Shown here in pieces: positions 11,225 to 33,997 of a DNA stretch of 42,990 nt. The position numbers were made by a program, and so were the translations under genes. Every line of letters begins with the position of its first letter. Positions within the stretch are counted from its first letter, which is position 1. The notes beneath the pieces are model-generated. The model did no database searches and was not told where the DNA came from. It saw only the letters and a program-made list of their open reading frames with translations. The stretch comes from Oscillibacter sp. (lineage in GTDB: Bacteria; Bacillota; Clostridia; Oscillospirales; Oscillospiraceae): assembly GCA_022791135.1 (NCBI GenBank), contig JAAVYM010000059.1, positions 1 to 42,990 on the forward strand, in the 5' to 3' direction.

Positions 11225-11255
11225 AAAGAGGCTGTGAAAACAGCCTCTTTTTCAT
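11225..11255 (+). terminator. Intrinsic terminator after the thioesterase gene
   Basis: AAAGAGGCTGT (11225-11235), GAAA tetraloop, ACAGCCTCTTT (11240-11250), then a short T-rich tail. It is an 11-base-pair perfect stem. The rest of the gap to 11401 shows no gene. Confidence 0.9.
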
Positions 11256-11401
11256 TTCCTCTTTCCGCAGGATGCGATTCCATCCGGGCATAAAATTCGG
11301 AAAGAATACCGGCCGTATTTTTCAGCTGCCTCCATTTGCGGCGGCAGGCAAAACGGCTCAAGCCAAACGGTGGGATTCTGCGATTTACCACAAGAATCCG
11401 C

Positions 11402-11497: not shown

Positions 11498-11685
11498 GCG
11501 TCCCCCTCCTTTGTCAGAACTTTGCGGATGCTCTTTTCCGCCTTGCTCCGGGGAAGCATCAGCTCATGCCCGCAGCCCAGGCAGCGGAGCTTGATGTCCA
11601 TGCCCACCCGGAGGATTTCCCACTGGGTTGCGCCGCAGGGGTGGGGTTTTTTCAATTCCACCCGGTCGTGAAGCCGAAGGTCCAT
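11494..11685 (-). CDS. DUF951 domain-containing protein
   Basis: A 63-residue protein of the widespread Firmicute DUF951 family. It matches the family pattern closely: MDLRLHDRVELKKPHPCG, then WEILRVGMDIKLRCLGCGHELMLPR. A Cys at residue 17 and the CLGC pair near residue 35 suggest a small metal-binding or rubredoxin-like knuckle; the beta-barrel character suggests nucleic acid binding. Neither is proven. AGGAGG lies six bases before the ATG. It is coupled to the 31-residue membrane peptide downstream and diverges from the S1-domain gene. Confidence 0.9.
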   Translation of the reverse strand: MDLRLHDRVELKKPHPCGATQWEILRVGMDIKLRCLGCGHELMLPRSKAEKSIRKVLTKEGDA

Positions 11686-16927: not shown

Positions 16928-18040
16928 ATGAGCACCGCGGAAGAGAGACTCCAGGAGGCCCTGGACAGCTTTGATTTCGGTGCGCCCGTGGTGGGGGCGC
17001 TGCGCTACGGCGAGGGGCATATCAACGACACCTTCGTGGTCCACACCCAGCCGGAGGACTGCTGTTGCCGCCGCTTCATCCTCCAGCGGATGAGTTCTGC
17101 GGCCTTTAAGCACCCGGATGAGCTGATGGAGAACATCATCGGCGTCACCGAGTACCTGGGCCGTCAGATTGAAAAGAGCGGCGGCGACCGGGACCGGGAG
17201 GCCATGCGGGTCATCCGCCCCCGGAGCGGCGAACCCTATTTCACCGACAGCGCCGGCGGGGCCTGGCGGGTCTACCCCTTTGTGGAGCGCACGGTCTGCT
17301 ACCAGGCGGCGGAGACGGCGGAGCTATTCGCGGCCTCCGGCCGGGCGTTTGGCCGGTTTCAGCGGCTGTTGGGGGACTACCCGGCCCAGACGCTTCATGA
17401 GACGATCCCCAATTTCCACAACACAGAGGACCGGCTGGCCAAGCTGAAGGAGGCTGTGAAGGCAGACCCCCTGGGCCGGGCGAAGGACTGCGGGCCGGAG
17501 ATCCGCTTTGTCCTGGAGCGGGAGGCGGACTGCTCCGTGGCGCTGGACGCCATGCGGGCGGGAACCCTTCCCCTCCGCGTCACCCACAACGACACGAAGC
17601 TGAACAACGTCCTGCTGGACGAGAAGACCAACGAGGGCATCTGCATCATCGACCTGGATACCGTGATGCCGGGGCTGGTGCTCTATGATTTCGGGGACTC
17701 CATCCGCTTTGGGGCGAACCATTGCGCCGAGGATGAGACAGACCTTAGCAAGGTGAATCTGGACATAGAGCTGTTCGCCGTTTACACCGCCGCCTTTCTG
17801 GAGGGCACCGGCGGGACGCTGAGCAATGCGGAAATTGCCTACCTTCCCTGGGGGGCGAAGCTGATGACCCTGGAGTGCGGCATCCGCTTCCTCACGGACT
17901 ACTTAGTGGGAGATCAGTATTTCCATATCAGCCGGGAACGGCACAACCTGGACCGCTGCCGCACGCAGTTTAAGCTGGTGAGCGACATGGAGGCCCATTG
18001 GAGCGAGCTGGAGGGCATCGTAAAGCAATATCAGAAATGA
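16928..18040 (+). CDS. Phosphotransferase, N-acetylhexosamine 1-kinase (NahK)-like
   Basis: A 370-residue member of the aminoglycoside-phosphotransferase/choline-kinase fold. The nucleotide loop region is GALRYGEGHINDTFVV. The catalytic HxDxxxxN is LRVTHNDTKLNNVLLD (about residue 215), and the metal-binding Asp motif is IIDLDTVMPGLVLYDFGDSIRFG. The family includes NahK/LnpB of bifidobacteria, which phosphorylates GlcNAc and GalNAc at C1, and proteins often named mucin desulfatase. Position right after a sugar-1-P nucleotidyltransferase and galE strongly favours a sugar 1-kinase over antibiotic resistance. It starts one base after the previous stop. No lacto-N-biose phosphorylase gene is in the window. 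Confidence 0.82.
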   Translation: MSTAEERLQEALDSFDFGAPVVGALRYGEGHINDTFVVHTQPEDCCCRRFILQRMSSAAFKHPDELMENIIGVTEYLGRQIEKSGGDRDREAMRVIRPRSGEPYFTDSAGGAWRVYPFVERTVCYQAAETAELFAASGRAFGRFQRLLGDYPAQTLHETIPNFHNTEDRLAKLKEAVKADPLGRAKDCGPEIRFVLEREADCSVALDAMRAGTLPLRVTHNDTKLNNVLLDEKTNEGICIIDLDTVMPGLVLYDFGDSIRFGANHCAEDETDLSKVNLDIELFAVYTAAFLEGTGGTLSNAEIAYLPWGAKLMTLECGIRFLTDYLVGDQYFHISRERHNLDRCRTQFKLVSDMEAHWSELEGIVKQYQK

Positions 18041-18894
18041 ACATACTCTTTGACGAGGAGCGTCTGCGCAGGCTGATTGCCAACCTCAACATTCTCACCG
18101 GCCTGCCGGCCAACATCCTGGACCCCGAGGGGCGGGATATCAACCTGTTCCGGGGCCATCCGCCGTTTTGCCGGATGCTCAACGACCTCCCCGAGGGGCA
18201 TGAGCGCTGCGTTGCCTGCGACCGGTGCAAGATCCGGCACTACACAGCGGAAAAAGGCTTCCAGTTCTACCGCTGCCACGCCGGCGTCTGCGAGGCCGTC
18301 ATGCCCCTGTTCGATAAGAAGCGGCCCCTGGCCTATCTGGTCTTTGGGTGCTATCTGGACGAGTCCCCTATGGAGGAGCAGTGGGAGCGCAGCCGGCAGC
18401 TGCTGGACTGGTATCCCGGCGGAGCCGGCGTTCTGCGCCCTGCCTTTTTCCAGTTCCGGCAATACACCCAGAAGGAGATCCAGGCCTACGCCGAGACGCT
18501 GGAGGCCCTGTCTTCTTACATTCAGCTCAAGGGTATGATCCTGACGGCGGAGCAGACGGACCTTCAGAAGCTGGAGCTGTATTTGGACCAGCACTACATG
18601 GAGAAGCTGTCCCTGGAGTCAATTTCCCAGCAGCTTCATATTGGCCGCACAAAGCTCTGCGCCTTGGCCAAGGAGCTCTCCGAGGGGCAGACGCTTTCCT
18701 ATCTGGTGGCTCAGCGGCGTATTGACGCGGCGAAACGGCTGCTGGTGCAGAGCAGCCTGCCCATTTCGGCGATTGGGGAGTCGGTGGGCATCAGTGATTA
18801 CAATTATTTTTCCAAGGTATTCCGTTCCGCCACCGGCATGACCCCCAGCGCCTTTCGGAAAAACTGCCGGGACGCGGCGTCAAATTTTGGCTGA
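18037..18894 (+). CDS. AraC-family regulator with PocR sensory domain
   Basis: A 285-residue transcription factor. Residues about 8-160 form a PocR-type ligand domain with the Cys-rich core HERCVACDRCK, then FYRCHAGVCEAVMPLF. These cysteines are a family trait and may hold a metal or Fe-S centre. The C-terminal 100 residues are an AraC helix-turn-helix pair (LSLESISQQLHIGRTKLCAL and ISAIGESVGISDYNYFSKVFR, ending GMTPSAFRK). The ATG overlaps the kinase stop (ATGA). It is the last gene of the operon and probably controls it in response to a hexosamine-derived ligand; the ligand is a guess. Confidence 0.9.
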   Translation: MNILFDEERLRRLIANLNILTGLPANILDPEGRDINLFRGHPPFCRMLNDLPEGHERCVACDRCKIRHYTAEKGFQFYRCHAGVCEAVMPLFDKKRPLAYLVFGCYLDESPMEEQWERSRQLLDWYPGGAGVLRPAFFQFRQYTQKEIQAYAETLEALSSYIQLKGMILTAEQTDLQKLELYLDQHYMEKLSLESISQQLHIGRTKLCALAKELSEGQTLSYLVAQRRIDAAKRLLVQSSLPISAIGESVGISDYNYFSKVFRSATGMTPSAFRKNCRDAASNFG

Positions 18895-18933
18895 GAGCAA
18901 GGTGGACCCTCCTAAAGAAAGATTGCGAACAGA

Positions 18934-18975
18934 AGGCAGCCGCACGATGCGAAGGCGTCATGCGGCTGCCTCTTT
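18934..18975 (+). terminator. Intrinsic terminator of the galE operon
   Basis: AGGCAGCCGCA (18934-18944) pairs with TGCGGCTGCCT (18961-18971). An inner GATGC/GCGTC stem is closed by a GAAG loop, and CTTTCTG follows. It is a strong two-part stem. Confidence 0.9.
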
Positions 18976-19036
18976 CTGTATTTTGAAGATAAATTAAACG
19001 CCGGGACCTGTGAGGCGGCCCGCTGCACCTGCCGGA

Positions 19037-19139
19037 CTTATCCGGGGCGCAGCTTTTGAATCCGCCTGAGCATCCAATTGATACGGCGAGCGGATAAGAC
19101 CCTTCCCTTAGGCGGAAAGCCGCCCCTGGGGCTTATCCG
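19037..19139. repeat. Three CTTATCCG octamers and a nested hairpin upstream of the LysR gene
   Basis: CTTATCCG occurs at 19037-19044 and 19132-19139 and inverted (CGGATAAG) at 19091-19098. The last two pair as a 9-base stem (19090-19098 with 19132-19140) enclosing GGCGG-AAAG-CCGCC (19111-19124). This stretch is otherwise gene-free. It may be a regulator site or the remains of a terminator. Confidence 0.5.
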
Positions 19140-19145
19140 CGATCG

Positions 19146-19174
19146 TTGCCTTTTCGAAATTCTTGTGGTAGAAT
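19146..19174 (+). promoter_or_regulatory. Promoter of the LysR gene
   Basis: -35 TTGCCT (19146-19151), 17 bases, extended -10 TGG-TAGAAT (TAGAAT at 19169-19174). It lies seven bases after the last CTTATCCG octamer. Confidence 0.7.
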
Positions 19175-19262
19175 AACGCTATCTATTCAAAATGGGTTCA
19201 AGGGCTGTCCGGCCTAATGTATCCCTTGCCGCAGGCCCTGGACCAACAGGAGCAATTGTATC

Positions 19263-20180
19263 ATGGAATTCAAGCAGCTGCGCTCCCTCGCTGCCGTAGT
19301 AAAATGGGAGAGCTTTACGAAGGCGGCGGAAAACCTCTACCTCTCACAGCCGACCATCAGTGCACACATCCGCCAGCTGGAAGAAGAGCTGCGGGCCAAG
19401 CTGATCATCCGCACAACGAAGAGCCTGGAAATCACCCCAAAGGGCATGGAGATTTACGAATACGCAAAGGCAATCCTGGATCTCCACGACCGGGCGGTCC
19501 GCTGCTGCGCTTCGGAGAACAGGAACACGATTTATCTGGGAGCGTCTACCATTCCCTCCGCCTATCTTCTGCCGGAGGTTCTCCCGGCGTATCAGGCGCA
19601 GTATCCAAAGGCCTGCGTGGCAGTCTGCCAGGACGACTCTCAGGGCGTCATCTCCGGACTTTTGGACGGCGTGTTCGACACCGGCATGATTGGGATGCCG
19701 GCGCAGGAAAAGAACCTTGCCTGCATCCCCTTTTATCAGGATCGGATGATACTCATCACGCCGGTGAACGAGCGGTTCCTCTCGCTGCACCGGGAGGCGG
19801 AACCCCCGATCCGGACGCTCCTGGAGTCTCCGGTTATCCTGCGGGAAAAGGGGAGCGGCAGCAAAAAAAGGGGAGAACTCCTGTTGGAACAGCTGGGCAT
19901 GTCCGAGCGGGATCTTCTGATTGCCGCCCGGGCCAACGATCAGGAGACGATTAAAAATTTGGTGGCCGGTGGCCTGGGCGTTTCGATTATTTCGGAGAAG
20001 GCGGCCCAGGGACTGGTGGAAGCGGGGCGGGTCCTGCGGTTCGAGTTCCTCGGGTTGGACAGCCGGAGGGACCTCTATTTGGCCTACCGGAAGGACCTGG
20101 CCCTGAAGAGCCATGTCCGGGGCTTTCTGCGGTTTATCCAGGAGTTCTATGGCGGACGGAGAGGAAAAGAACCCAGATAA
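19263..20180 (+). CDS. LysR-family transcriptional regulator
   Basis: A 305-residue LysR-type regulator. The N-terminal winged helix reads MEFKQLRSLAAVVKWESFTK, then AENLYLSQPTISAHIRQLEEEL and ITPKGMEIYEYAKAIL. The remaining 210 residues form the two-lobed effector domain (IYLGASTIPSAYLLPEVLPAY, LVAGGLGVSIISEKAAQ). Relatives include CysB/CysL-like regulators of sulfur and nitrogen genes. It converges on the double-cubane reductase gene and is the only regulator near that reductase and the divergent ABC transporter, so it likely controls one or both. The effector is unknown. CAGGAG stands nine bases before the ATG. Confidence 0.92.
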   Translation: MEFKQLRSLAAVVKWESFTKAAENLYLSQPTISAHIRQLEEELRAKLIIRTTKSLEITPKGMEIYEYAKAILDLHDRAVRCCASENRNTIYLGASTIPSAYLLPEVLPAYQAQYPKACVAVCQDDSQGVISGLLDGVFDTGMIGMPAQEKNLACIPFYQDRMILITPVNERFLSLHREAEPPIRTLLESPVILREKGSGSKKRGELLLEQLGMSERDLLIAARANDQETIKNLVAGGLGVSIISEKAAQGLVEAGRVLRFEFLGLDSRRDLYLAYRKDLALKSHVRGFLRFIQEFYGGRRGKEPR

Positions 20181-20234
20181 TTCCCTCCTTCGCAGGAGCG
20201 CCGGAGGCCGCATATGCGATATCTGTCTTTGATG

Positions 20235-20252
20235 AAAGCGCATACGCGCTTT
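20235..20252 (+). terminator. Possible terminator of the LysR gene
   Basis: AAAGCGC (20235-20241), ATAC loop, GCGCTTT (20246-20252). It is a short stem with only three T, so support is weak. Confidence 0.35.
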
Positions 20253-20317
20253 GTACAACAGCGGACTGCGCCGTTTTCAACGATGCCCGTTCCATATCCC
20301 AATCATCGGATAAAGCC

Positions 20318-20344
20318 GGAGGGCCTGACATTGTCAGGCCCTCC
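20318..20344. terminator. Bidirectional terminator between LysR and reductase genes
   Basis: GGAGGGCCTGAC (20318-20329), ATT loop, GTCAGGCCCTCC (20333-20344). The 12-base-pair stem sits between two convergent genes, just past the reductase stop. Confidence 0.8.
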
Positions 20345-20351
20345 TCTGTAT

Positions 20352-21506
20352 TCAAAGCATCTCCAGAAATGCGCTCAGGCGGGTGGAAAGCTGCCCCAGG
20401 TCGGAGCGGGAGAAGTCCGTTTCCACGCAGAGGTACGGAATTCCCAGTTTCCTGGACAGCTCCCGGACCTGATAGCGCTCCACGCTGTAAGGGTGGCACG
20501 CCTGGAGGACGACCTCCACGATGCCCTCCACCTGGAATTCCTCCGTCAGCTGCCGGAGGAGTTCCATACGGTGGAGATTGGGGGCCATCACCGCGCAGCC
20601 AATGCCCAAATAGCGCTCGGCAATGGCCTCCAGAATGTTGGGGCGATTCGTGTCCACCATCAATCGAGTGGGCTTGATGCCGCCGCAGTTCTCCAGGCAC
20701 ACCACCACGCCGCCGCTGGATTCGATGGCGCCCACGGTCTTGTCCAGCACCCCGCCGATGGGGCAGCCGGTGACCAAAATGCGCTTGCAGGACGCCGGGA
20801 CCGGGCGCTCGCCGTCGTCATAGGCCGCCTGAATTTTCCGGACCGCCTCCTCAATGGCCTGGGTGGAAGCGGCCTGATTGAAACTGAAATTACTGCTGTC
20901 CATTACGGCATACAGATCCCGGGCGAAGGCGGGAGGCGGCGTCTGTTTTTGCAGTTCCATAAGAGCGGTCTTCGCCTGCCGCTGGCGGTTGCGCTCCTCG
21001 CAGGCCCGGCGCAGGGCCTCCTCCGTAATGGTGATGCCGAAACGTTTTTCCAGCGCCTCGATCAGAAGCCGCAGCTCCGCGACCCATTGATCCTTGGCGT
21101 AGTGCCGGTCCACCGCCTGGGGCAGCTGCATCACATAGACGTCCTTGAGCCGCCCCAGCAGCTCGTACATTTTCTTTTTCCCGTCGCAAGTGGTCTCCCC
21201 GACAATAAGATCGGCAAAATAAGTATAGGGGCATTTGTCCGAGACGGCAAAGCCATAGCTGGATTTAATCAGCGGGCAGAGATTCTTGGGCAGATCCGCC
21301 TCCGCCGCGGCGACCGTTTCGTCGCTGGTTCCGCACAGGCTGACCGTATAGATTCCGGCAGCGTCGAAAATCTCGTTGGGGGTGAAGGTGCAAAACGTAC
21401 CCGCGATCTTTCCGCCCCGGTCCTTGACCTCCTTCGCCCGCAGGAATCCCGCCTTCCGCGCGTCTGAAAATTCCTCAAAAATGGAGGGAAGCCGCCTCTC
21501 ATCCAT
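20352..21506 (-). CDS. Double-cubane-cluster-type anaerobic reductase (HgdB/YjiM family)
   Basis: A 384-residue protein of the 2-hydroxyacyl-CoA dehydratase superfamily. It most resembles the single-subunit double-cubane-cluster proteins, in which ATP-driven electron injection makes a low-potential [8Fe-9S] centre reduce small molecules; the natural substrate of that family is unknown. Visible marks are IAGTFCTFTPNEIFDAAG (Cys39), LPKNLCPLIKSSYGF (Cys77), FADLIVGETTCDGKKKM (Cys107), VTGCPIGG (Cys248), CLENCGG (Cys274), GIGCAV (Cys304) and LQACHPYSVE (Cys337). That is enough cysteines to hold such a cluster. No partner alpha/beta dehydratase subunit or CoA-transferase gene is near, which speaks against amino-acid fermentation. 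AAGGAG precedes the ATG. It follows its activator by 32 bases. Confidence 0.88.
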   Translation of the reverse strand: MDERRLPSIFEEFSDARKAGFLRAKEVKDRGGKIAGTFCTFTPNEIFDAAGIYTVSLCGTSDETVAAAEADLPKNLCPLIKSSYGFAVSDKCPYTYFADLIVGETTCDGKKKMYELLGRLKDVYVMQLPQAVDRHYAKDQWVAELRLLIEALEKRFGITITEEALRRACEERNRQRQAKTALMELQKQTPPPAFARDLYAVMDSSNFSFNQAASTQAIEEAVRKIQAAYDDGERPVPASCKRILVTGCPIGGVLDKTVGAIESSGGVVVCLENCGGIKPTRLMVDTNRPNILEAIAERYLGIGCAVMAPNLHRMELLRQLTEEFQVEGIVEVVLQACHPYSVERYQVRELSRKLGIPYLCVETDFSRSDLGQLSTRLSAFLEML

Positions 21507-21538
21507 CCGTCATACGCTCCTTTCTGCTGTCGTGTCTC

Positions 21539-22306
21539 TTAAATGGACTCCGCGCACAGCGCCGCGCCGATGGCGCCGGCATACCGCCCGTCATCGCAGT
21601 GGGCCACCGGCACGCCCAGCGCCTTAGACAGCGCGGCGCAAAAGGGTTCCACCCCGCACAGCCCCCCGGTGAGGCAGACCGCCGTGTCCTGGGTGCGGAT
21701 CTGCTGCGCTTGGGAGCAGACCTTTTTTACGATGGAATCCATCACGGCGAACGCGATATCCTCCCGGGGCCGGCCGCTGCCGATGAGGCTGATTACCTCA
21801 GATTCGGCGAAGACCGTGCACATAGAACTTATGGAGACGCCGCCGCCCCGCCGGGCCAGGGCGCACAGCTCCTCTGGCCGCAGGGACAGTGTATTGGCCA
21901 TGATTTCCAAAAAGCGGCCGGTTCCAGCGGAGCACTTGTCGTTCATCACAAAATCCTGGACCTGTCCCCCCTCTGTGCAGATCAGCTTCGTGTCCTGTCC
22001 GCCGATGTCAATAATCATCAGGCGGGGCGCCCCGTGGAGGAAGGCCGCCCCCCGGGCGTGGCAGGTGATCTCCGTGACGGCTTTGTCCGCGTAGGGGACG
22101 GAGATGCGCCCATAGCCCGTGGCCACCACAGCGCTGTCCTCCAGCGGGACGCCCCATTCCTCAAGGGCCGTGCGGACGCGCTCTGCCGCATCGACGCTGC
22201 TCCAGCCGGTGGGCTGCAGCAGGCGGTGCAGGATGGCGCGGTCCCGGTCCAGAACCACCGCCTTTGTGCTGGTGGACCCCACGTCGATGCCGATCCGATA
22301 CTTCAT
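21539..22306 (-). CDS. ATP-dependent activator of the dehydratase/double-cubane reductase (HgdC/YjiL family)
   Basis: A 255-residue ASKHA-fold ATPase (BadF/BadG/BcrA family) that passes electrons to its partner by ATP hydrolysis. The phosphate-1 loop is YRIGIDVGSTSTKAVV; the second is LMIIDIGGQDTKLI. The two cysteines that bridge one 4Fe-4S cluster across the dimer are in NDKCSAGTGRFLE and SSMCTVFAESEVI. The adenosine motif is CLTGGLCGVEPF. AAAGGGAG precedes the ATG. It is the first gene of a two-gene minus-strand operon with the reductase. Ferredoxin or flavodoxin is the expected electron donor. Confidence 0.92.
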   Translation of the reverse strand: MKYRIGIDVGSTSTKAVVLDRDRAILHRLLQPTGWSSVDAAERVRTALEEWGVPLEDSAVVATGYGRISVPYADKAVTEITCHARGAAFLHGAPRLMIIDIGGQDTKLICTEGGQVQDFVMNDKCSAGTGRFLEIMANTLSLRPEELCALARRGGGVSISSMCTVFAESEVISLIGSGRPREDIAFAVMDSIVKKVCSQAQQIRTQDTAVCLTGGLCGVEPFCAALSKALGVPVAHCDDGRYAGAIGAALCAESI

Positions 22307-22322
22307 GGCGCTCTCCCTTTCC

Positions 22323-22344
22323 GCCGCCCGCCGTGGCGGGCGGC
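22323..22344 (-). other. Stable hairpin in the activator gene leader
   Basis: GCCGCCCGC (22323-22331), CGTG loop, GCGGGCGGC (22336-22344), immediately upstream of the ribosome site of the activator gene. It is probably an mRNA-stability or translation-control element. Its role is inferred. Confidence 0.5.
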
Positions 22345-22363
22345 GCGTCCTTGTGTCCTCATC

Positions 22364-22392
22364 AGTATAAACGTTCCTCTCCTGGTTTTGAA
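22364..22392 (-). promoter_or_regulatory. Candidate promoter of the activator-reductase operon
   Basis: On the minus strand TTCAAA (22392-22387), 17 bases, TATACT (22369-22364). The -35 overlaps the inverted repeat GAAATT-TGG-AATTTC (22390-22404). Confidence 0.55.
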
Positions 22393-22439
22393 ATTTGGAA
22401 TTTCGATAAAAGGGCAGGATCTATTATAAAGTTCTATAA
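22390..22439. promoter_or_regulatory. Two inverted repeats in the divergent control region
   Basis: GAAATT-TGG-AATTTC (22390-22404) and TTATA-N6-TATAA (22424-22439) lie between the two divergent promoters. They have the size of LysR-type sites (interrupted palindromes of about 15 bases). Binding by the nearby LysR protein is inference. Confidence 0.45.
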
Positions 22440-22469
22440 GAAGGAGGGGCAGAATCTATCGCCGTTGGG

Positions 22470-22498
22470 TTTACAGAAAAATAGGATCGTGCTATGAT
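22470..22498 (+). promoter_or_regulatory. Promoter of the ABC transporter operon
   Basis: -35 TTTACA (22470-22475), 17 bases, -10 TATGAT (22493-22498). This leaves a structured leader of about 100 bases before the permease gene. Confidence 0.75.
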
Positions 22499-22551
22499 GG
22501 TTTGACGTTATACTTTTTTAAGAATAGCGAATGATATGGACCTATCGAAGC

Positions 22552-22597
22552 GGGCCGGAGGGTAACCGGCGAAGAGAGCATCCGATGGGCCGGAGGG
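22552..22597 (+). promoter_or_regulatory. Duplicated ribosome-site element with alternative pairing in the permease leader
   Basis: The 11-mer GGGCCGGAGGG occurs at 22552-22562 and again at 22587-22597, where it is the ribosome site of the permease gene (ATG 22605). Between them CCGGC (22566-22570) can pair with GCCGG of either copy (22554-22558 or 22589-22593). Translation could switch between an open and a blocked ribosome site. It matches no riboswitch class that I recognise. Confidence 0.5.
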
Positions 22598-22604
22598 GTG
22601 TACG

Positions 22605-23678
22605 ATGCCGGAGGATATTCGACCGAAGAGCGAAAACAAAGCCGGGCGCACGGGGCTGGAGAACCTGACCCGCCAGCAGCTGCGGGAACTGGAGACCAAG
22701 GAGATGACAAGGGCGCAAAAGGTCCTGGAGCGGATGATTCTGCTTTTGCCGGACGTCTGCGGAATCGTGGCGGTTTTGGAGTATCGCCTGCTTCCGGATA
22801 ACAGCATGAACCAGAATCCAAATACATACCTGGCTTTTTTGATTCTGCTGATTGCCGCCTACAACATCTATGGCGCGGTGGCCGGACTCCGGCGTTTGAG
22901 AGGGGACAAGCGGGTCTATGAGAATCTGCGCTACCGTGCGCCGCTGTTTTCTGCGCTGTTCCTGCTGCTGGCTTTTTACGATTACCTGACGCTGAAGACG
23001 GGAATTTTGACCCAGCCCTTTGTGCCCTGCCTGAACTTCGTGGCCAACGCCGCCTGGAAAGACCGCGCCATGATTTGGGACTGCACGCTGCACACGCTCT
23101 GGCTGCTGATGCTGGGCTATACCATCGGCGTCGCCCTGGGCCTGGTCACCGGCATCGCCTGCGGGTACTCCAAGCGATGCCGCTACTGGGTGGACCCCAT
23201 CATCAAGTTCCTGGGACCCATTCCCACGTCCACATGGATTCCCATCATGATGGTGGTAGCATCCTCGCTGTTTGGCGGCGCGGTGTTCATCATTGCCCTG
23301 GGTTCCTGGTTTGCCGTGACGGTGGCGTCCATGACGGGCATTTCCAATGTGGATAAGGACTTCTTCGATGCGGCGAAGACGCTGGGCGCCAGCGAGCGCC
23401 AGCTGGTGTTCCGGGTGGCGATTCCCCATGCCATGCCCTCGATTCTCCAAGGCTGCACCCAGGCCATGAGCAGCTCGTGCACTGCGATTATGATTGCGGA
23501 AATGCTGGGCGTCAAGTCCGGCCTGGGCTGGTATATGAACTGGAGCAAGTCCTGGGCCAGCTATGACAAGATGTTTGCCGCCCTGTTCGTGATCTGCGTC
23601 ATCTTTACCATCGTCACCAAGGGTCTGGACCTCATCAAGCGCCGCGTGCTGCGCTGGCAGATTGGAGTGGAGAAGTGA
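22605..23678 (+). CDS. ABC transporter permease, SsuC/TauC-type, N-terminally extended
   Basis: Membrane subunit of an importer of the nitrate/sulfonate/taurine family. The 357-residue protein is about 100 residues longer than usual. The extra N-terminal part has two hydrophobic segments (about 45-60 and 72-90) before the canonical domain (about 115-345). The canonical part includes the EAA loop FFDAAKTLGASERQLVFRVAIPHAMPSIL, where the ATPase docks, and then IMIAEMLGVKSGLGWYM. GGAGGGG stands seven bases before the ATG. It is the first gene of a three-gene operon divergent from the double-cubane reductase pair. Confidence 0.9.
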   Translation: MPEDIRPKSENKAGRTGLENLTRQQLRELETKEMTRAQKVLERMILLLPDVCGIVAVLEYRLLPDNSMNQNPNTYLAFLILLIAAYNIYGAVAGLRRLRGDKRVYENLRYRAPLFSALFLLLAFYDYLTLKTGILTQPFVPCLNFVANAAWKDRAMIWDCTLHTLWLLMLGYTIGVALGLVTGIACGYSKRCRYWVDPIIKFLGPIPTSTWIPIMMVVASSLFGGAVFIIALGSWFAVTVASMTGISNVDKDFFDAAKTLGASERQLVFRVAIPHAMPSILQGCTQAMSSSCTAIMIAEMLGVKSGLGWYMNWSKSWASYDKMFAALFVICVIFTIVTKGLDLIKRRVLRWQIGVEK

Positions 23679-24454
23679 TGGAGGATCGGAAAGTCACGCT
23701 GGAGCTGAAGAATGTATCCAAGAGCTTTGCCAAGATTGAGACGGAGGAGGTTACCCACGCCCTGAACAGTGTAACCCTCTCCATGGAAAGCGGCGAGTTC
23801 ATCAGTCTGGTGGGTCCCTCCGGCTGCGGGAAATCTACCATTCTGCGCCTGGTGGCCGGTCTGATCGCTCCCACCACAGGAACGCTCAGCGTAAACGGCA
23901 AGGAGATTGAGGATCCGGACCCCGACCGGGGCATGGTATTCCAAAAGCCCACGCTGTTCCCCTGGCTGACCGTGGAGAAGAACATTGCCTTTAGCCTGCA
24001 GATGCAGGGGAAGCTGAAGGGCAATGCACAGCGTGTGGAGGAGATGCTTGAGATTATCGGCCTGGAGAAGTTCCGGGACGACTATCCCGCCCAGCTCTCC
24101 GGCGGCATGGCCCAGCGGGTGGCGCTGGCGCGCTCCCTGATTAACGAGCCGAAGATTCTGCTGCTGGACGAACCCCTGGGCGCCCTGGACGCCTTCACCC
24201 GGATGAATATGCAGGATGAAATTTTGAAGATCTGGCAAAAGCGCCAGCAGCTGGCGCTGATGGTCACCCATGACGTGGATGAGGCGATCTATATGGGGAC
24301 GCGGGTCCTGGTGATGGATTCCGGTCCCGGCTGGATTGTGGCCGACATCCGGATTTCGGAGGCATTCCCCCGGGACCGGTCCTCTCCCGCCTTCGTGGCC
24401 TATCGGAATGACATCCTGCGGAAGCTCCACTTCAGCGGTGGAGAGGTCCAATAG
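23678..24454 (+). CDS. ABC transporter ATP-binding protein, SsuB/TauB-type
   Basis: The 258-residue ATPase powers the adjacent permease. Walker A is VGPSGCGKSTILRL, the Q-loop is GMVFQKPTLFPWLTV, the signature is LSGGMAQRVALARSL, Walker B is ILLLDEPLGALD, and the switch His is in LMVTHDVDEAIYMG. The ATG overlaps the permease stop (TGATG); a GTG one codon earlier is an alternative start. Sequence type (nitrate/sulfonate/bicarbonate class) agrees with the permease and binding protein. Confidence 0.94.
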   Translation: MEDRKVTLELKNVSKSFAKIETEEVTHALNSVTLSMESGEFISLVGPSGCGKSTILRLVAGLIAPTTGTLSVNGKEIEDPDPDRGMVFQKPTLFPWLTVEKNIAFSLQMQGKLKGNAQRVEEMLEIIGLEKFRDDYPAQLSGGMAQRVALARSLINEPKILLLDEPLGALDAFTRMNMQDEILKIWQKRQQLALMVTHDVDEAIYMGTRVLVMDSGPGWIVADIRISEAFPRDRSSPAFVAYRNDILRKLHFSGGEVQ

Positions 24455-24522
24455 TATCCATGGTCCAAATCGCGGCGCGGAGCCGTGTTGGAATAAAATT
24501 GATGAAAAGAGGAAGCGCACAC

Positions 24523-25713
24523 ATGGATGGAAAGAAGATTCTTGCATTGGTCCTGGCGGTGGTTATGGCCCTGTGCCTGGCGGCCTGCGGCGGCGACACC
24601 GGCGGCCAGCTGGAGGGCGACCTGAACAACGATGGACAGATCGAGATGGGTCAAAACGGCGTAGAAGTGGAGGTCAATGTGTCCGATGTCCACATGAATG
24701 CCGCCGAGGCATCGGCCTCCGGCAATTGGGAGGCGCTGTTTACGCCCATGGACATTCCCGGCCGTGCCGTGGACATGGCCGATTTTGATCTGACGCCTTC
24801 CGCCGAGGAGCTGGAGGCCATGAAAAACGAGCCGGCCTACGGTGAACCTGTCAAGTATTACATGTCCGACGGCTGCACCTCCGGCCCCACCGTGGCGGAC
24901 GACCGGGGCTACTATGCGGAGGCCGGCCTGACGGCCGAGGGCTTCAAGGGCACCTCCTACACGGAGGCGCTGGGCACCCGGCAGGCGACCGTGTGCACGG
25001 GCCACATCGCCACGATGCTGGTCCCCATCACCAATGGTGTGGACCTGACCTTCGTCGGCGGTGCGCACATCGGCTGCAAATCCATTTATGTTTTGGGGGA
25101 CAGCGCGTATAACACCACCGAGGACCTGAAGGGCACCCAAATCTCCGTCCCCAACGGCATCGGCGCGTCTGACTACAACATCACCTGCCTGCTGCTGGAT
25201 GCCGACGGTATCGACCCTCAGACCGACGTCACGCTGATGCAGGTCTCTTCTGACGCCTGCGTGGCGGCCATGGAGCGCGGGGAGATTTCCGGCGCGCTGC
25301 TCAGCGACACCTTCGCTTACGCTATGGTTAAAGATGGCAAGCTCAAATGTATCCGCTCCCTGCTGGATGAGGACTTTGCAGATGACAACTGCTGTGTTAT
25401 CGCCATGAACCGCACCTTTGTCCAGGAGAACCCTGTTATTTCAAAGAAAATTGTTCAGGCCGTTCAAAAGGCCCACTCCTGGATGCGGGAGAATCCCGAC
25501 GAAGCCACCACGCTGCTGCTGGAGCGGGGCTGGAACGGCGGTGACTTTGACATGAATGTCATGATTAACAACTCCCTGCAATTTGGCCTGGATCAGGCAT
25601 TCACGGAAACATCTCTCCGGGATGTGGTGAACCGTTATGTACGCCTGGGTCTGATTACCAATATGGACGACACGGATGCCATCATGGATCTGGCTTGGAC
25701 GCCGGTGCTGTGA
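24523..25713 (+). CDS. ABC transporter substrate-binding lipoprotein, SsuA/NrtA-like, Cys/His-rich
   Basis: A 396-residue secreted lipoprotein: signal segment KKILALVLAVVMALCLAAC with lipobox LAAC (Cys22 lipidated), an acidic low-complexity linker (about 25-105), then a periplasmic-binding-type domain. The domain is unusual in its cysteines: Cys118 (SDGCTSGP), Cys158 with His161 (TVCTGH), His182 and Cys185 (AHIGCKS), Cys222, 246, 276, 290 and 291. By analogy with SsuA/NrtA, the first three places are the loops that line the ligand cleft. This suggests a metal, metal complex or thiophilic ligand rather than a plain sulfonate; that is inference. The ATG at 24523 follows AGAGGAAG; earlier in-frame starts would spoil the signal peptide. 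Confidence 0.85.
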   Translation: MDGKKILALVLAVVMALCLAACGGDTGGQLEGDLNNDGQIEMGQNGVEVEVNVSDVHMNAAEASASGNWEALFTPMDIPGRAVDMADFDLTPSAEELEAMKNEPAYGEPVKYYMSDGCTSGPTVADDRGYYAEAGLTAEGFKGTSYTEALGTRQATVCTGHIATMLVPITNGVDLTFVGGAHIGCKSIYVLGDSAYNTTEDLKGTQISVPNGIGASDYNITCLLLDADGIDPQTDVTLMQVSSDACVAAMERGEISGALLSDTFAYAMVKDGKLKCIRSLLDEDFADDNCCVIAMNRTFVQENPVISKKIVQAVQKAHSWMRENPDEATTLLLERGWNGGDFDMNVMINNSLQFGLDQAFTETSLRDVVNRYVRLGLITNMDDTDAIMDLAWTPVL

Positions 25714-25787
25714 TAAATCCGGCATCTTGTGAAAATGCCGGGCAAATATTCGAAAACGCTCCGGCGGCTTCGCCTGGAGGAAACGGA

Positions 25788-25820
25788 AAACCCACGCCAG
25801 AATTATCTGGCGTGGGTTTT
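25788..25820 (+). terminator. Intrinsic terminator of the ABC transporter operon
   Basis: AAACCCACGCCAGA (25788-25801), ATTA loop, TCTGGCGTGGGTTT (25806-25819), then T. It is a 14-base-pair perfect stem. Confidence 0.92.
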
Positions 25821-25984
25821 GCTGTAGAAAGCCATGGCGGTACCGGGGGCCTGTTTCGCTTATGACCCTGCCGGAACAGTTTTGCGCCTGGTTCCCGCAT
25901 GGAATTCAGCCGCTCTACTCAGGCAAAAGAAGAAGCTCCCGCTCCGTTTGTGTCAAGCCCATGCGGCCGGGGTCAAAGTTGGAA

Positions 25985-26461
25985 ATGCCGATTAGTTTCT
26001 ATTAATGATGAAAATAATGTTGCAAGAGTTGCAATTGAGGCTCAATGTACAGTAAAAGTATATTACAAGTATACCAATGAAGACAATTCTTTCTATGACA
26101 AAGAAGATGGTGTTTACTTGTGGCAGGAGGTTATAGAAATAGAGGAATCGTACAAGGTTGAACTGAACCTTACGATATCTCTTGATATTTCTAACTGCGG
26201 AATAGATACAGAGGAAGAAAAAGAATATGTTGAGTTTATGGATTATGTAGATTGCCTGACCGTACGGATTTAGAGGAATACAATTTAATTGCGGGCGAAG
26301 TAGTATCTGATTCTGGTCCGTTTTATGACGAGTATGACCAGGATGAAGATCGCATAGTTTAAAGAATATGCTATACCAGATGTTCGGATTGTGGCTCGCC
26401 TATAGGGGTGAAGCGTGATGGCTGCGGTGGATTTTGTGTGGTGTGCGCACCAAATCACTAG
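25985..26461 (+). pseudogene. Decayed 3' part of a PIN/DUF4935-like protein with zinc ribbon
   Basis: Lower-GC coding remains in changing frames. The first frame (to 26273) has ARVAIEAQCTVKVYYKY and YDKEDGVYLWQEVIE, a beta-rich stretch. A one-base shift near 26250 continues as DLEEYNLIAGEVV and ends at a TAA. In the same frame a zinc-ribbon-like tail follows: CYTRCSDCGSPIGVKR, then CGGFCVVCAPNH. This order resembles the C-terminus of some gut-bacterial PIN-domain proteins, but the N-terminal nuclease part is absent. A frame from 25899 merely reads into it from unrelated GC-rich sequence. Confidence 0.5.
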
Positions 26462-27091: not shown

Positions 27092-28069
27092 TCAGTTCGA
27101 ATTTGCCTGGAAATTCATATGAAACTTTTTATAACCATCCGTAAACTGCGTATCAAGCCGTTGGACGATATCTTCGGCTGAAACCGGAGACTCATATTCT
27201 TTACACCAATTTCCATAGTCGGTTGTATCGCTATATTCGTTTAGCTTGATCCGGAAATCCCGATAATATAACTTTGGACCCTCTTCATAAGTTTTACCTT
27301 GAAGCGCGTCGGGCAGCACACTCTGCCGCATGGAATAGACGGCAAACATGTACTCTGTGTCCCATGTCATCAACTTGTATTCGTCGATAGACATGGCCTC
27401 ACAATCTATTCCAATGGATTCCAACGCCCGGATCAAATCAACATAGTGAAAAAGCTCGCGCCCTAAGCGCATCTTATAGAACAGCTCTACCGTATGGGGG
27501 TTCGTTTGAATGTCCGCAAAAGAAGGCGATTCTTTTTTCTTGTCTTCCTCCAGTTTCTCTCTGATAACGCCGATGATCTTCTCCACCTCGGAAGGGTCGT
27601 ATTTGCTGGCAAAAAACTGCTGTTCTTCCGCCACTTTCGAGTAGTGCTGCAAATCCTTTGCAATTTGAGAAACCTGTGCGTCTGCGGCCTGGATCCCCTC
27701 CTCCACCTGGCGGAACCCACTGCCCGCTTCCTCATAAACCGCAGCGGCAGCCTCGTCTTGCGAGACGCTCTCAGACGGTTTTGCCTGGAAAAAGGATTGT
27801 AACTCCCTCCCATAAGCGGGGAAGGAACCGGCATAAACGACGGACCAGACGAAGAGCGCGGCAAATACGGCTCCTGAGGCACGGGACAAAAGTTTTTGCC
27901 GTTTTGCATCGTGTATCATATCCTCGCAAAAGGACAGGATAATCCAGGCCGATCCGAAAACTAAAAACAGGAGCTTAAAAAATATATTGGGCGACGCTGT
28001 GGAAAGAATGACGAGTACGATCACCAAAAGAACGGAGAATATGATTTTTGCATCCTTATTCAGCCGCAT
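27092..28069 (-). CDS. Membrane protein of unknown function (paralog of the preceding gene)
   Basis: A 325-residue protein of no recognised family. Three N-terminal helices are visible (about 9-24, 29-47, 66-83), followed by a soluble domain rich in Glu/Gln/Lys helices (about 90-185). The conserved C-terminal region has ELFYKM (195-200), GIDC (220-223), LMTWDTEYMFAVYSM (233-247), DYGNW and KKFHMNF (314-320). The same marks in the same order occur in the upstream gene, so the two are diverged paralogs. GGGGAGGAG precedes the ATG, and only 18 bases separate it from the upstream gene. The soluble domain probably lies outside the membrane, but orientation is not certain. Codon use and lower GC suggest acquisition. 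Confidence 0.75.
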   Translation of the reverse strand: MRLNKDAKIIFSVLLVIVLVILSTASPNIFFKLLFLVFGSAWIILSFCEDMIHDAKRQKLLSRASGAVFAALFVWSVVYAGSFPAYGRELQSFFQAKPSESVSQDEAAAAVYEEAGSGFRQVEEGIQAADAQVSQIAKDLQHYSKVAEEQQFFASKYDPSEVEKIIGVIREKLEEDKKKESPSFADIQTNPHTVELFYKMRLGRELFHYVDLIRALESIGIDCEAMSIDEYKLMTWDTEYMFAVYSMRQSVLPDALQGKTYEEGPKLYYRDFRIKLNEYSDTTDYGNWCKEYESPVSAEDIVQRLDTQFTDGYKKFHMNFQANSN

Positions 28070-28087
28070 CCTACGTCTCCTCCCCTC

Positions 28088-29029
28088 TTACACAGGAGCC
28101 TTTGCAAAATTCATATGGAATCTTTTATAAAAGTTCATAACATATTCGTGGTGGCTCTTTTCCAGATCCTCTGCGTACACATTATGGTAGGAAAAGTTCC
28201 AGCCCCCATAATCCAGCAGATCGCTGTACTGGTCTTTAGATGATTTATTGGAATCAAATTTAAGCCCCTTCGACTCATACCACTTGTTATCCGCCAGATC
28301 CGGCTCCAGCTCTTTCTTCATGGAATACAGTATATAAAGGTTCTCCGTATCCCAAAGCATCAGCGTGTATCGGTCGACGCCCAGCTGATCGCAGTCGATC
28401 CCATAGTCCTCAAACGCGCTGATAAAACTGCTGTAGTGATATATCCAGTCGTAGGCCTTTGTTTTGTAAAACAATTCAAGATCGGTCCGTTTGGTCTTTA
28501 TATCCGGGAATTGCTCCTCAATCAGCCCCTGCCGTTCCTCAAGCAGATCGTGCAGCTGCTGGACCTCCGCGGAATCGATCTCCTCCGACAAAAAAACATC
28601 GCTGCCAAGCGTATCGATCAACCCTTCCAGACCTTTTGAGACCCCGCCCACTCGATCCTGAAGTTCCCCCAGCGACCGGTTGGCGTCTTCCTGCTGCATC
28701 CGGTAAGCGTCCTCTGCGGACAGGGCGTCCGCCAGTTCCTCTTGGGGGGCCTGCACGCTATGGTCCAACAAACGCGCCGGCAGATCCGGGAAAAAGGCGC
28801 ATACTAAGAACCACAGACCAAGGCATGCCGCCAAAACAAAGGAAAGGTCCTGCAACCTGCGGCTCCCATTTTCGTGTCCCTTAAAGTACAGAGTCACAGC
28901 GAGCATCGTCAGCAAAAGGAACACCGTTTTCGCGGCCAGACCGGGAAATACATTTTCTGAGAGCAGCAAAGTCAGCAATGCGATACCACAGGACCAACGG
29001 ATCTGCGTATTTTCTTTATGCTCATCCAT
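28088..29029 (-). CDS. Membrane protein of unknown function (first of a paralogous pair)
   Basis: A 313-residue protein with the same plan as its downstream neighbour: three helices (about 13-27, 31-49, 61-80), a coiled-coil-prone segment (about 95-180), then ELFYKT (185-190), GIDC (210-213), LMLWDTENLYILYSMKK (223-239), DYGGW and KRFHMNF (302-308). Overall identity to the neighbour looks low outside these motifs. A TTG seven codons upstream is in frame, but AGAGGA is placed for the ATG at 29029. No homolog of known function is recognised. Both genes could form a hetero-oligomeric membrane complex. Confidence 0.75.
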   Translation of the reverse strand: MDEHKENTQIRWSCGIALLTLLLSENVFPGLAAKTVFLLLTMLAVTLYFKGHENGSRRLQDLSFVLAACLGLWFLVCAFFPDLPARLLDHSVQAPQEELADALSAEDAYRMQQEDANRSLGELQDRVGGVSKGLEGLIDTLGSDVFLSEEIDSAEVQQLHDLLEERQGLIEEQFPDIKTKRTDLELFYKTKAYDWIYHYSSFISAFEDYGIDCDQLGVDRYTLMLWDTENLYILYSMKKELEPDLADNKWYESKGLKFDSNKSSKDQYSDLLDYGGWNFSYHNVYAEDLEKSHHEYVMNFYKRFHMNFAKAPV

Positions 29030-29086
29030 TTTGATTATCCTCTGATTCAAATCCCATTTTATATATTCTGACGGTCATCTTTTATT

Positions 29087-29866: not shown

Positions 29867-30901
<1,035 letters not shown>

Positions 30902-31125
30902 TCAGCAAAAGCGCCGCATAAGCAGAGGGTCAGTTTCAGGGGGTACGGGTTCGATCAGGACGATGCTGACCGCCAGACCGCCTGACCCCGGCTTGACCAT
31001 AGTGTTTCCAGGATGGGTAAGCCCGGTTAAGCTGGACTGTGCCCAGTCCAGCGGATCATTAATTTGCTTCCCTTTTCTTGATGATTGCTTGTCTGCTTTT
31101 ACACAAATTTTTCTGCCGGGCTTCT

Positions 31126-31747
31126 TTAAAGTGGAACAATTGGTATATAACCAAGCTCCTCTGCTAAGGCCCTTGTCTCATCCCCTTCATAAGCCCGGTC
31201 CATCAAAAGGTGAACCGGATAGTCCGCCGAACCGCGCTGCCGCAAAAGTGCGCAGCCTTCCGGCCCCATCGCCGCAGTTTCCCGCAGACAACGAGTAGAT
31301 TACCCCATCTCGATCAGATGCGGCGGCCATATGAAGTTTGGTATTCCATCCGCCCCGTGTTTTCCCGATGGGCTGGATACCGCTTTTTTCAAAGCACCCA
31401 TTCCGCCGGGATGGACCTTGATGCAGGTGGAAACCAGACGGATCACATTTATTTGGATTTGAATGATTCCCATCTGCTGCAAACGCAGAAATGCAGCCTG
31501 TAAAACACCCTTCTTCGCCCACCGGTTTACCCGGACATAGATCACGTGCCAATCTCCGTATTCTTTGGGCAGGCTCCTCCATTTGCACCCATTTTCCACG
31601 ATGTACAGCACTGCGTTCAACACTTCCGGGTTACTGATTTTGGCCGGTTTCCGCTGTTTAGGAAAGCAATCTTTGATCTGCTCGTATTGCTCTTTTTGTA
31701 GTTCCATTATTTCATTATATCACTATCTTACTTATGCGATCAGGCTC
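31126..31747 (-). pseudogene. Truncated, frameshifted IS5-family transposase
   Basis: The N-terminal part (MELQKEQYEQIKDCFP, PEVLNAVLYIVENGCKWRSLPKEYGDWHVIYVRVNRW) matches the IS5-type OrfA domain. The catalytic part continues in another frame (GKTRGGWNTKLHMAAASDRDGVIYSLSAGN) and then a third (VHLLMDRAYEGDETRALAEELGYIPIVPL), ending at a TAA at 31126. The last third is missing. The promoter-side end shows GAGCCTG (31747-31741 on the minus strand), which may be the terminal repeat. One shift could be the programmed frameshift of such elements; the second shows decay. Confidence 0.8.
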
Positions 31748-32356: not shown

Positions 32357-33997
32357 ATGAAGATGAAAAAAATGATTGCCGGGTTCCTGGCCGCCGCGCT
32401 GTGCTTGACGCTGGCAGCCTGCAACAGCGGCGAAATACTGCCGGCCGGCCCCGAAACCACGCCCCAGCAGGAGCCTGCCAGCTCCCCGCAGAGCGAGGGA
32501 AAGGATACCTTGGTAGTCCGCGCCCACAAGGACATCGGAGATTTGAATCCCCACACGATGAAAAGCCAGATGTACGCCCAGGATTGGGTCTATGAGAGCC
32601 TGGTGGCTCTGGAGAATGATACGATTGTCCCCGTTCTGGCCGAGAGCTGGGAGATCTCGCCGGACGGCTGCGCCTATACCTTTCACCTGCGCAAAGGGGT
32701 GAAATTCAGCGACGGCAGCGATTTTACCTCCGCTGTCGCAAAGCGTAATATAGAAGCTGTCCAGCGGCACGCCGGCGGCTATTCCTTCCTTCAGTCTCTG
32801 ACCTCCATCACAAGCATTGATACGCCGGACAACCTCACCCTGGTCCTCAATCTGAGCCAGCCCTGCAACTCTCTTCTCAACGATTTTACATTCCGGCGTC
32901 CGCTGACCATGCTTGGGGAAGCCGGATTCCCTGCCGGGGGCGACCCTTATGACAATGGCGTCACCGCCCCCATCGGCACCGGCATGTGGGTACTGAAGGA
33001 GTATGTGGCCGACCAGTATGCGCTCTTCCAGCGCAACGAGGAATACTGGGGAGAAAAGCCCAGCTTTCAATATCTAAGGGCTGTTGTGATCCCCGACGTA
33101 AATACGGCTGCCAACGCCCTGAAGGCCGGCGAGATTGATGTGATGGTGGATTCCACGCAGATTACCGCCGACATGTACCAGCAGATGTCGGCAGCCGGCT
33201 TCAAGACCGAGATGGCCCCCTCCACCAGCATTTCCAACCTGAACATCAACACCGCCGGCCCCATTACCGGAGACCGGAGTGTCCGTCTGGCGATGGAGTA
33301 CGCCACGGATAACACCGCCATCTCCCAGGGCATATTCGGAGGGCTTCAGGAGCCGGCCTCCGCCTATTTCTCCAGCGAGGCGCCCTATGCCGGCACCGCC
33401 GGAATCGAGCCGTATCCCTACGACCCGGAGAAGGCCAGCCAGATTCTGGAGGACGCAGGCTGGGTCTATGCCGGCGGGGACACGGTTCGGTCCAAGGATG
33501 GCCGCAGGCTGGAATTGGATCTGATCTATGACGCCTCGGTCACCAACGACCGTGACATCGGACTCATCCTTCAGGCCCAATACGCCGAAGTGGGCATTCA
33601 GCTCAATATCGTCCCCCAGGACAGCCAGGTCTACCGCAAGAACTGGACGGATGGGGAGTTCGGCGTGCTCATCTACAGCTCCTGGGGCGGCTCCTATGAA
33701 CCCTACGCCACTTTGGCCGCCATGGCCAGCGGCGGCGACAAATTCAACACCGTGCAAAAGGGCATGAGCAACAAAGCCGAGCTGGATGCCGTCATGACCG
33801 ACTGTCTGAGTCAGACGGACCCGGACAAGCTCCAGGAGAATTTCAACTATATCATGAAGAGCTTCCACGATGAGGCCGTATACGTACCGCTCACTGTCAC
33901 CAGCACCCTGGCTATCTACCGCAGCGAGCTGACCGGGCTGGAGCTGATTCCCAGCCGAAGCGGAATGGGTGTCAGCCACATGGCTTGGGCCGGCTGA
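32357..33997 (+). CDS. NikA/OppA-family substrate-binding lipoprotein under B12 control
   Basis: A 546-residue extracytoplasmic lipoprotein of the SBP_bac_5 family: signal KKMIAGFLAAALCLTLAAC with lipobox LAAC (Cys22), then the two-lobed domain. It resembles E. coli NikA along its length: DIGDLNPHTMKSQMYAQDWVYE, APIGTGMWVLKEY, FQRNEEYWGEKPS, YDPEKASQILEDAGW and FGVLIYSSWGGSYEPYA. The loop after the last motif reads MASGGDKF and has no His where NikA has its nickel-site histidine, so the ligand may differ. The riboswitch suggests cobalt, a cobalt chelate or a corrinoid precursor. TAGGAGGG precedes the ATG. Confidence 0.9.
   Translation: MKMKKMIAGFLAAALCLTLAACNSGEILPAGPETTPQQEPASSPQSEGKDTLVVRAHKDIGDLNPHTMKSQMYAQDWVYESLVALENDTIVPVLAESWEISPDGCAYTFHLRKGVKFSDGSDFTSAVAKRNIEAVQRHAGGYSFLQSLTSITSIDTPDNLTLVLNLSQPCNSLLNDFTFRRPLTMLGEAGFPAGGDPYDNGVTAPIGTGMWVLKEYVADQYALFQRNEEYWGEKPSFQYLRAVVIPDVNTAANALKAGEIDVMVDSTQITADMYQQMSAAGFKTEMAPSTSISNLNINTAGPITGDRSVRLAMEYATDNTAISQGIFGGLQEPASAYFSSEAPYAGTAGIEPYPYDPEKASQILEDAGWVYAGGDTVRSKDGRRLELDLIYDASVTNDRDIGLILQAQYAEVGIQLNIVPQDSQVYRKNWTDGEFGVLIYSSWGGSYEPYATLAAMASGGDKFNTVQKGMSNKAELDAVMTDCLSQTDPDKLQENFNYIMKSFHDEAVYVPLTVTSTLAIYRSELTGLELIPSRSGMGVSHMAWAG

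Follow-up and report, generated by a model that had tools for sequence, protein, structure and literature searches.

A double-cubane cluster protein beside a cysteine-rich ABC importer in Oscillibacter: a candidate selenium-acquisition unit

Proteins of the double-cubane cluster family perform the ATP-driven reduction of acetylene, hydrazine and azide, and their biological function is given as unknown in a 2025 article (PMC11971306). A provisional link between the double-cubane cluster protein (DCCP) and selenium is already present in PMC10418091; the accounts of a Calderihabitans DCCP lowered under CO and of yjiM/yjiL in an E. coli ygfI mutant do not, in the excerpts concerned, bear on selenium. 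As regards uptake, PMC9312934 (2022) states that a high-affinity system for selenium transport had yet to be identified. The present analysis concerns a stretch of 42,990 nucleotides of Oscillibacter sp. (assembly GCA_022791135.1, contig JAAVYM010000059.1), hereafter the window, in which the genes of a DCCP and its activase stand back to back with those of a Cys-rich ABC importer, an association for which no description was found in the open-licence literature among the matches listed. We give an even chance to the reading that these genes form a selenium-acquisition unit, which would import a probably organic selenium compound and reduce it to selenide for SelD. This reading is supported by the co-occurrence of DCCP with SelD, the selenium-related genes in the neighbourhoods, the repeated juxtaposition of DCCP and importer, the match of the adjacent regulator to the LysR_Se model, the presence of SelD, YqeB and YqeC in the genome itself and the location of sister importers near sulfur genes.

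Regarding the importer, the closest described systems are the SAO importer SaoXPA, read by others as organometallic (PMC13188914), which is of the same broad ABC type and likewise exhibits chalcogen-rich residues, and the SsuABC, TauABC and CmpA/NrtA importers, with which the fold of the binding protein is common. Regarding the reductase, the methylthio-alkane reductase MarBHDK provides an analogy, as an ATP-driven low-potential reductase acting on an organic chalcogen (PMC12552129, PMC9147875), which is what is proposed here for DCCP; it belongs, however, to an unrelated protein family and acts on sulfur, not selenium. As for the regulator, the LysR_Se subfamily was defined by Lin et al. (2015; PMC5322559), who list as top STRING partner of the Slackia LysR a 2-hydroxyglutaryl-CoA dehydratase subunit, i.e. 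a member of the superfamily of DCCP, and its archaeal ortholog HrsM is described as repressing when selenium is adequate (PMC11097638).

In the window, LysR (plus strand) is followed by DCCP and activase (both minus strand) and, past a divergent region, by the importer genes on the plus strand (22605-25713), in the order permease, ATPase and lipoprotein-like binding protein; gene coordinates together with model and domain matches bear out the original prediction, which had placed a reductase, its activator, a LysR gene and a divergent importer here. The DCCP exceeds the cut-off of NF040772 (480.8 vs. 350 bits) with 6eno/7yyl as best PDB match (253 bits), and eight Cys, invariant in 53/53 collected DCCPs (a set leaving out hits below 340 residues or 195 bits, including the sub-cut-off L097 and L098), are each aligned opposite a Cys of 6eno. 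The entries 6eno and 7yyl, which we take to be the DCCP of Carboxydothermus, and YjiM/YjiL, presumably the E. coli DCCP/activase counterpart, thus resemble the pair in the window by family model, by the eight aligned Cys and by a dedicated activase, the E. coli control genome also being over the cut-off in the DCCP search; the adjoining dedicated importer sets the window DCCP apart from both. The activase, encoded 32 bases upstream of the DCCP gene on the same strand, exceeds the cut-off of TIGR00241 (234.5 vs. 125.4 bits) and matches 1hux, 4eht and chain E of 7yyl, i.e. the activase chain of the DCCP entry. A classic 2-hydroxyacyl-CoA dehydratase role in amino-acid fermentation, already considered unlikely at the outset, was rejected, as the HadC model scores 63 bits for a cut-off of 700.

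The importer had been designated as SsuABC-type, which holds at the level of the fold, the structure model of the binding protein (pLDDT 87.5) giving matches of the CmpA/SsuA type, but not at the level of the families, since all Ssu models remain below cut-off (SsuA family 72 vs. 163.5, SsuC 79 vs. 347, ATPase 205 vs. 395). It differs from SsuABC, TauABC and CmpA/NrtA importers in falling under the SsuA, SsuC and TauC cut-offs and in the four invariant Cys of its binding protein, and neither the fold matches nor the sequence matches that binding protein and permease give in the PDB indicate a ligand for its clade. The permease is also extended at its N-terminus by about 130 residues ahead of the ABC domain (window 22605-23000), with extra hydrophobic stretches discerned by eye. 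The LysR regulator, for its part, is over the cut-off of NF040786, the selenium metabolism-associated LysR model (291.1 vs. 250 bits), and its genome encodes SelD, as expected of LysR_Se/HrsM; unlike these, it sits at a DCCP-importer locus rather than beside selenocysteine-decoding genes.

The genome of the window (84.5% complete) carries the selenium-dependent molybdenum hydroxylase trait, with SelD (408 bits, over cut-off), YqeB (360 vs. 220) and YqeC (149 vs. 73) as neighbours on contig C58. The best SelB score is 103 bits for a cut-off of 242, in an assembly of that limited completeness. Across samples of 150 genomes of the same family and 236 genomes of the same class, DCCP is constantly accompanied by SelD: 11/11 DCCP genomes vs. 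44/139 others in the family (Fisher 8e-6), 23/23 vs. 30/213 in the class (1.3e-17) and, per genus with labels assigned by hand, 18/18 vs. 20/137 (2e-13), all three tests being blind to kinship. The two samples together comprise 33 distinct DCCP genomes, all with SelD. Among 14 control genomes, the DCCP and SelD models were each over cut-off in 2/14, both models picking out E. coli and M. jannaschii in the class searches, and two genomes with DCCP-like proteins below cut-off differ from each other, G184 having SelD and G042 lacking it.

Further importer carriers were sought by one contig scan for the permease with exact peptide patterns, which therefore found only close relatives, namely 23 further loci at 67-84% identity, labelled as Oscillospiraceae, Lachnospiraceae, Peptostreptococcaceae or less closely placed Clostridia and for several of them as animal-gut assemblies. 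SelD is over cut-off in 22 of these 23 genomes, compared with 53/236 in the class; the missing case, G384, has a locus (L030) holding YedF, Sec-lyase-like (selenocysteine-lyase-like), DCCP and DUF3343 genes. As for DCCP, the co-occurrence of reductase and importer proposed as a check at the outset was borne out, DCCP being over cut-off in 22/23 importer genomes vs. 23/236 class genomes; the exception is G404, an assembly of 1.3 Mb. Once the eight loci of a Lachnospiraceae subclade with a diverged binding protein (L043-L049, L052) are collapsed to one, the counts amount to 15/16 for SelD and 15/16 for DCCP. In the family sample, an importer permease of at least 46% identity occurs in 4/150 genomes, among which the genome of the window, G240 and G299 possess DCCP and SelD, with no DCCP within 10 kb of the permease in the latter two, and G339 possesses neither, its permease lying near nitrogenase-like genes. 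Because close relatives of both partners co-occur in selenium-using bacteria, the pair likely imports a selenium compound, which it would reduce to usable selenide.

The neighbourhoods of the 23 importers (flanks of at most 10 kb, less where a contig ends) comprise a DCCP gene in seven cases (L030, L031, L035, L037, L040, L041, L051) and YedF, Sec-lyase-like or DUF3343 genes in six (L030, L031, L037, L038, L041, L051), the union amounting to 8/23. Representative scores are 205 vs. 110 for YedF and 253 vs. 250 for LysR_Se in L037, 51.7 vs. 25 for the DUF3343 protein of L041 (Se_S_carrier, PF11823) and, for the Sec-lyase-like protein of L031, 435 vs. 377 with the cysteine desulfurase model TIGR01977, the SclA selenocysteine-lyase model remaining below cut-off (364 vs. 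525). In L037, a single-strand run gathers DCCP, LysR_Se, activase, YedF, Sec-lyase-like protein, permease, ATPase and binding protein. No selenium gene was present among ten scanned proteins from the neighbourhoods of the Lachnospiraceae subclade.

Under random placement with at most two DCCP copies per genome, seven DCCPs within 10 kb of 23 importers have a probability of about 1e-6 or less. Besides, the importer-adjacent DCCPs scatter over several clades of the DCCP tree, where supported branches force at least four changes, so that importer and DCCP were probably joined on more than one occasion. Together with the neighbourhoods and the co-occurrence in 22/23 genomes, this upholds the initial proposal that the reductase pair and the importer belong together. 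It also makes very unlikely an explanation in which DCCP serves intracellular selenium metabolism, e.g. cofactor maturation or selenide protection, next to an importer that is an unrelated neighbour. Such a view would account for the 16/23 importer loci without a DCCP nearby and for the class genomes where DCCP tracks SelD even though their DCCP loci show no window-type importer; both the enrichment of DCCP in importer genomes relative to 23/236 in the class and the repeated juxtaposition speak against it.

Elsewhere, DCCP loci were surveyed in 14 family and 30 class stretches (two class loci being below cut-off and some stretches short). Many of them, not all, hold SelD, YqeB, YedF, Sec-lyase-like or DUF3343 genes, SelD being nearby for instance in L082, L086 and L087, and no importer permease of window-like similarity was seen in these stretches, weak relatives aside. 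A second type of DCCP, of about 420 residues with a longer N-terminus, was observed in L071, L077-L080, L084, L086, L088, L090, L092 and L093, with a DUF3343 (Se/S carrier) gene and an activase gene closely downstream. At L017, L019, L021 and L022, the DCCP and activase genes are close to paired Dpp/Nik-type ATPases and a relative of the PatB-type C-S lyase. YedF and/or Sec-lyase-like genes are also found at these four loci, and, against NCBIfam, the genes of L019, L021 and L022 place their binding proteins under the Nik/Opp cut-offs and the PatB relative of L021 at 327 vs. 340. This Dpp/Nik-type set is suggestive of organic selenium uptake and might be a second importer type of the same system.

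The main rival explanation is that the importer is a Cys version of the SAO 'organometallic' importer, taking up a thiophilic organometal or metalloid that DCCP helps to reduce or detoxify, in which case selenium genes would be around since related systems use selenocysteine; we regard it as unlikely. Its appeal comes from the named models, as SaoP ranks best for the permease, SaoA best for the ATPase and SaoX second for the binding protein, although all remain below cut-off (106 vs. 295, 255 vs. 360 and 63 vs. 300, respectively), from the Cys that are invariant in the binding protein and in the permease, and from the closest relatives of the window DCCP, i.e. L025 and L027 (64% identity) and L026 (63%). 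In L027, an SAO operon directly adjoins a DCCP - activase - DCCP set (653-7867 and 8294-11601), so that this SAO importer neighbours DCCPs of the subclade of the window DCCP, with SaoE (515 vs. 325), SaoB (262 vs. 140), SaoA (409 vs. 360), SaoX (403 vs. 300) and two SaoP genes which, cut at TGA, score 220 and 204 vs. 295, each with one in-frame TGA ahead of the next stop; L025 terminates in a SaoX fragment. In L026, there is neither an SAO operon nor a SaoX fragment, and four genes near its DCCP match no NCBIfam family.

On the other hand, the importer in the window lacks selenocysteine and, at the SaoP and SaoX motif positions where selenocysteine or Cys is expected, has Ile297 and Ser261, the SaoX position being taken from a reading of the UxP motif. 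With the L027 genes as tblastn queries (E 1e-10), no relative of SaoE, SaoB or SaoX was found around either the window importer or any of the 23 importers closely related to it, a search that left out SaoL, SaoT and SaoC. The SaoX model also had no match in the 236 class genomes and 0/14 controls, which shows no absence because the controls gave no match either. Other points against a Cys version of SAO are the presence of YedF, Sec-lyase-like and Se-carrier genes in the neighbourhoods, the location of the sister importers near sulfur genes and the tracking of SelD by DCCP in genomes where no window-type importer was seen. The window importer is akin to SAO in kind and neighbourhood but no member of it.

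More distant relatives of the importer bring sulfur into consideration. Twelve outlying importers were gathered: eight came from the remaining genomes with a family permease match, among them L062 (71% identity), which falls within the close clade, and four were taken from the higher-scoring hits in the class. Nitrogenase-like H, D or K genes lie near 7/12, accompanied by cysteine synthase, O-acetylhomoserine sulfhydrylase or cystathionine enzymes. The nitrogenase-like proteins of two loci, L103 and L105, were set against solved structures: those of L105 best match 9d9u/9fmg (D 423 and K 388 bits, next best 129 and 56), as do less markedly those of L103 (D 161 and K 216, next best 107 and 118), 9FMG being the methylthio-alkane reductase complex (PMC12552129). 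Mar-like genes thus sit near distant sisters of the window importer. From these sisters, import of organic sulfur could be extrapolated to the window, with DCCP acting on sulfur or on both chalcogens, as could also be argued from the binding-protein Cys and H182 held in common; we find this quite improbable, as SelD occurs in 22/23 close-clade genomes vs. 5/12 outlying ones (DCCP in 2/12) and the nitrogenase-like and sulfur-enzyme queries had no match in the window or in the 23 close loci. In the permease tree, the close clade stands apart from the nitrogenase-linked rows with a support of 99, in a quick tree with long-branch warnings. FtsX/MacB-type permease genes adjoin importers of the selenium branch as well as of the sulfur branch (L033 8485-9690, L103 12408-13625, L104 6590-7807).

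Within the close clade, permease Cys 142, 160, 186, 292 and 331 are kept in 23/23 rows, and the binding protein has as invariant residues C118, H161, H182, C185, C290 and C291 (L102, truncated by a stop, was left out of the permease tree, and L052, with a split frame, of the permease set and binding-protein alignment). The four Cys of the binding protein were considered as a selenium signature and rejected: together with H182 they are also present in 12/12 outlying relatives, and because 7/12 of these genomes are without SelD they provide no argument for selenium. H161 and the permease Cys track the close clade better, though imperfectly. The possibility of a selenoprotein importer was likewise discarded, as the sole internal stop in the tblastn alignments of more than 150 residues (L016-L052 and window) is that of the L052 binding protein, which is not a TGA.

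Several points weigh against selenium acquisition. The co-occurrence statistics ignore phylogeny, and the persistence of Cys and H182 in SelD-less relatives has just been mentioned. SelD is on a different contig from the DCCP-importer locus, and SelD along with a YqeB relative occurs in G316, a genome of the same genus that possesses neither DCCP nor a window-type permease, so selenium use does not need this system. The flanks of 15/23 importer loci hold none of the selenium or DCCP genes searched for, and two of the three nearest DCCP relatives, L025 and L027, are beside SAO importers. Finally, adjacency of LysR_Se was rejected as a general rule, the only importer loci where two LysR queries located such a gene nearby being the window and one of 23 related loci (L037); LysR is thus no regular component of the system in which it had been included from the start, and no LysR operator was established by an inverted-repeat search of the control region. 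As a whole, the original interpretation is partly supported, having missed the selenium signal given by the LysR_Se model, SelD co-occurrence and the YedF, Sec-lyase-like and Se-carrier neighbours; of its two suggestions for the importer, substrate import appears preferable to supply of a metal or cofactor.

The features of the locus are collected in Table 1. The control region of about 300 bases with promoters each way turned out to be 298 bases long, with consensus-scan matches on the plus strand (22470-22498, 10/12, with TG preceding the second hexamer) and on the minus strand (22392-22364, 9/12), in a segment (18890-26300) totalling 10 promoter-like sites vs. a shuffled mean of 3.5. Its imperfect inverted repeat (arms 22366-22395 and 22399-22428, 70%) is a candidate feature only. 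A nifJ-type gene at 6438-9959, about 9.3 kb from the LysR gene, may supply electrons, although such a link would be generic. As regards the surroundings, a PocR-domain AraC-type regulator (17998-18894) lies directly upstream of the LysR gene, and two neighbouring minus-strand genes at 27092-29050 encode proteins of 325 and 320 residues, paralogue-like by eye. Truncated IS3- and IS5-type transposase pieces, both below cut-off (29867-31707), separate the locus from nickel-type importer genes (32357-37687), whose binding protein exceeds the NikA cut-off (431 vs. 393) and whose scanned permease and ATPase are under theirs.

Table 1. Positions in the window of the DCCP-importer locus features and the evidence for each.
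Feature	Position	Strand	Evidence
LysR-type regulator, selenium-associated subfamily (LysR_Se)	19263..20180	+	NF040786 and LysR domains
Terminator-like hairpin between converging LysR and DCCP genes	20318..20344	.	12 pairs, 9 G-C; consensus match only
Predicted DCCP, ATP-dependent reductase	20352..21506	-	NF040772; PDB 6eno/7yyl; eight invariant Cys
Predicted ATP-driven activase of reductase	21539..22306	-	TIGR00241; PDB 1hux, 4eht, 7yyl chain E
Divergent control region, 298 bases	22307..22604	.	Promoter-like sites both ways and imperfect inverted repeat; consensus matches only
ABC importer permease, 357 aa	22605..23678	+	PF00528; conserved Cys
ABC importer ATPase	23675..24454	+	PF00005
Lipoprotein-like substrate-binding protein, NMT1/SsuA fold	24523..25713	+	Domain, fold and CmpA/SsuA-type matches; longer frame from 24460

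Turning back to selenium acquisition, the binding protein would capture a chalcogen compound in a pocket, where its invariant Cys and His may be located, and permease and ATPase, as expected from their family, would import it. At the expense of ATP, the activase would then drive low-potential electrons into the double-cubane cluster, as established for the DCCP family, and DCCP would reduce the selenium compound; by analogy with methylthio-alkane reductase on C-S bonds, the simplest reaction would be a reductive cleavage of the C-Se bond. SelD, encoded in the genome along with YqeB and YqeC, would convert the selenide into selenophosphate, likely for the cofactor of the selenium-dependent molybdenum hydroxylase, and LysR_Se, as its family suggests, may regulate according to selenium status. 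In a more far-reaching proposal, which we hold as tentative and on the unlikely side, DCCP would be a selenium reductase, i.e. the ATP-driven selenium counterpart of methylthio-alkane reductase, freeing selenide from C-Se (or Se-X) bonds; the importer would be dedicated to organoselenium, taken up with high affinity, while its sulfur sister would serve Mar-like operons, and SAO systems would represent this uptake design in a selenocysteine form.

With a single small gene set, two questions become testable, that is the biological function of DCCP and the nature of high-affinity selenium transport. Beyond the window, the occurrence of the sulfur sister close to Mar-like genes points to a common design, where an importer and an ATP-driven low-potential reductase would be combined for scavenging organic chalcogens without oxygen.

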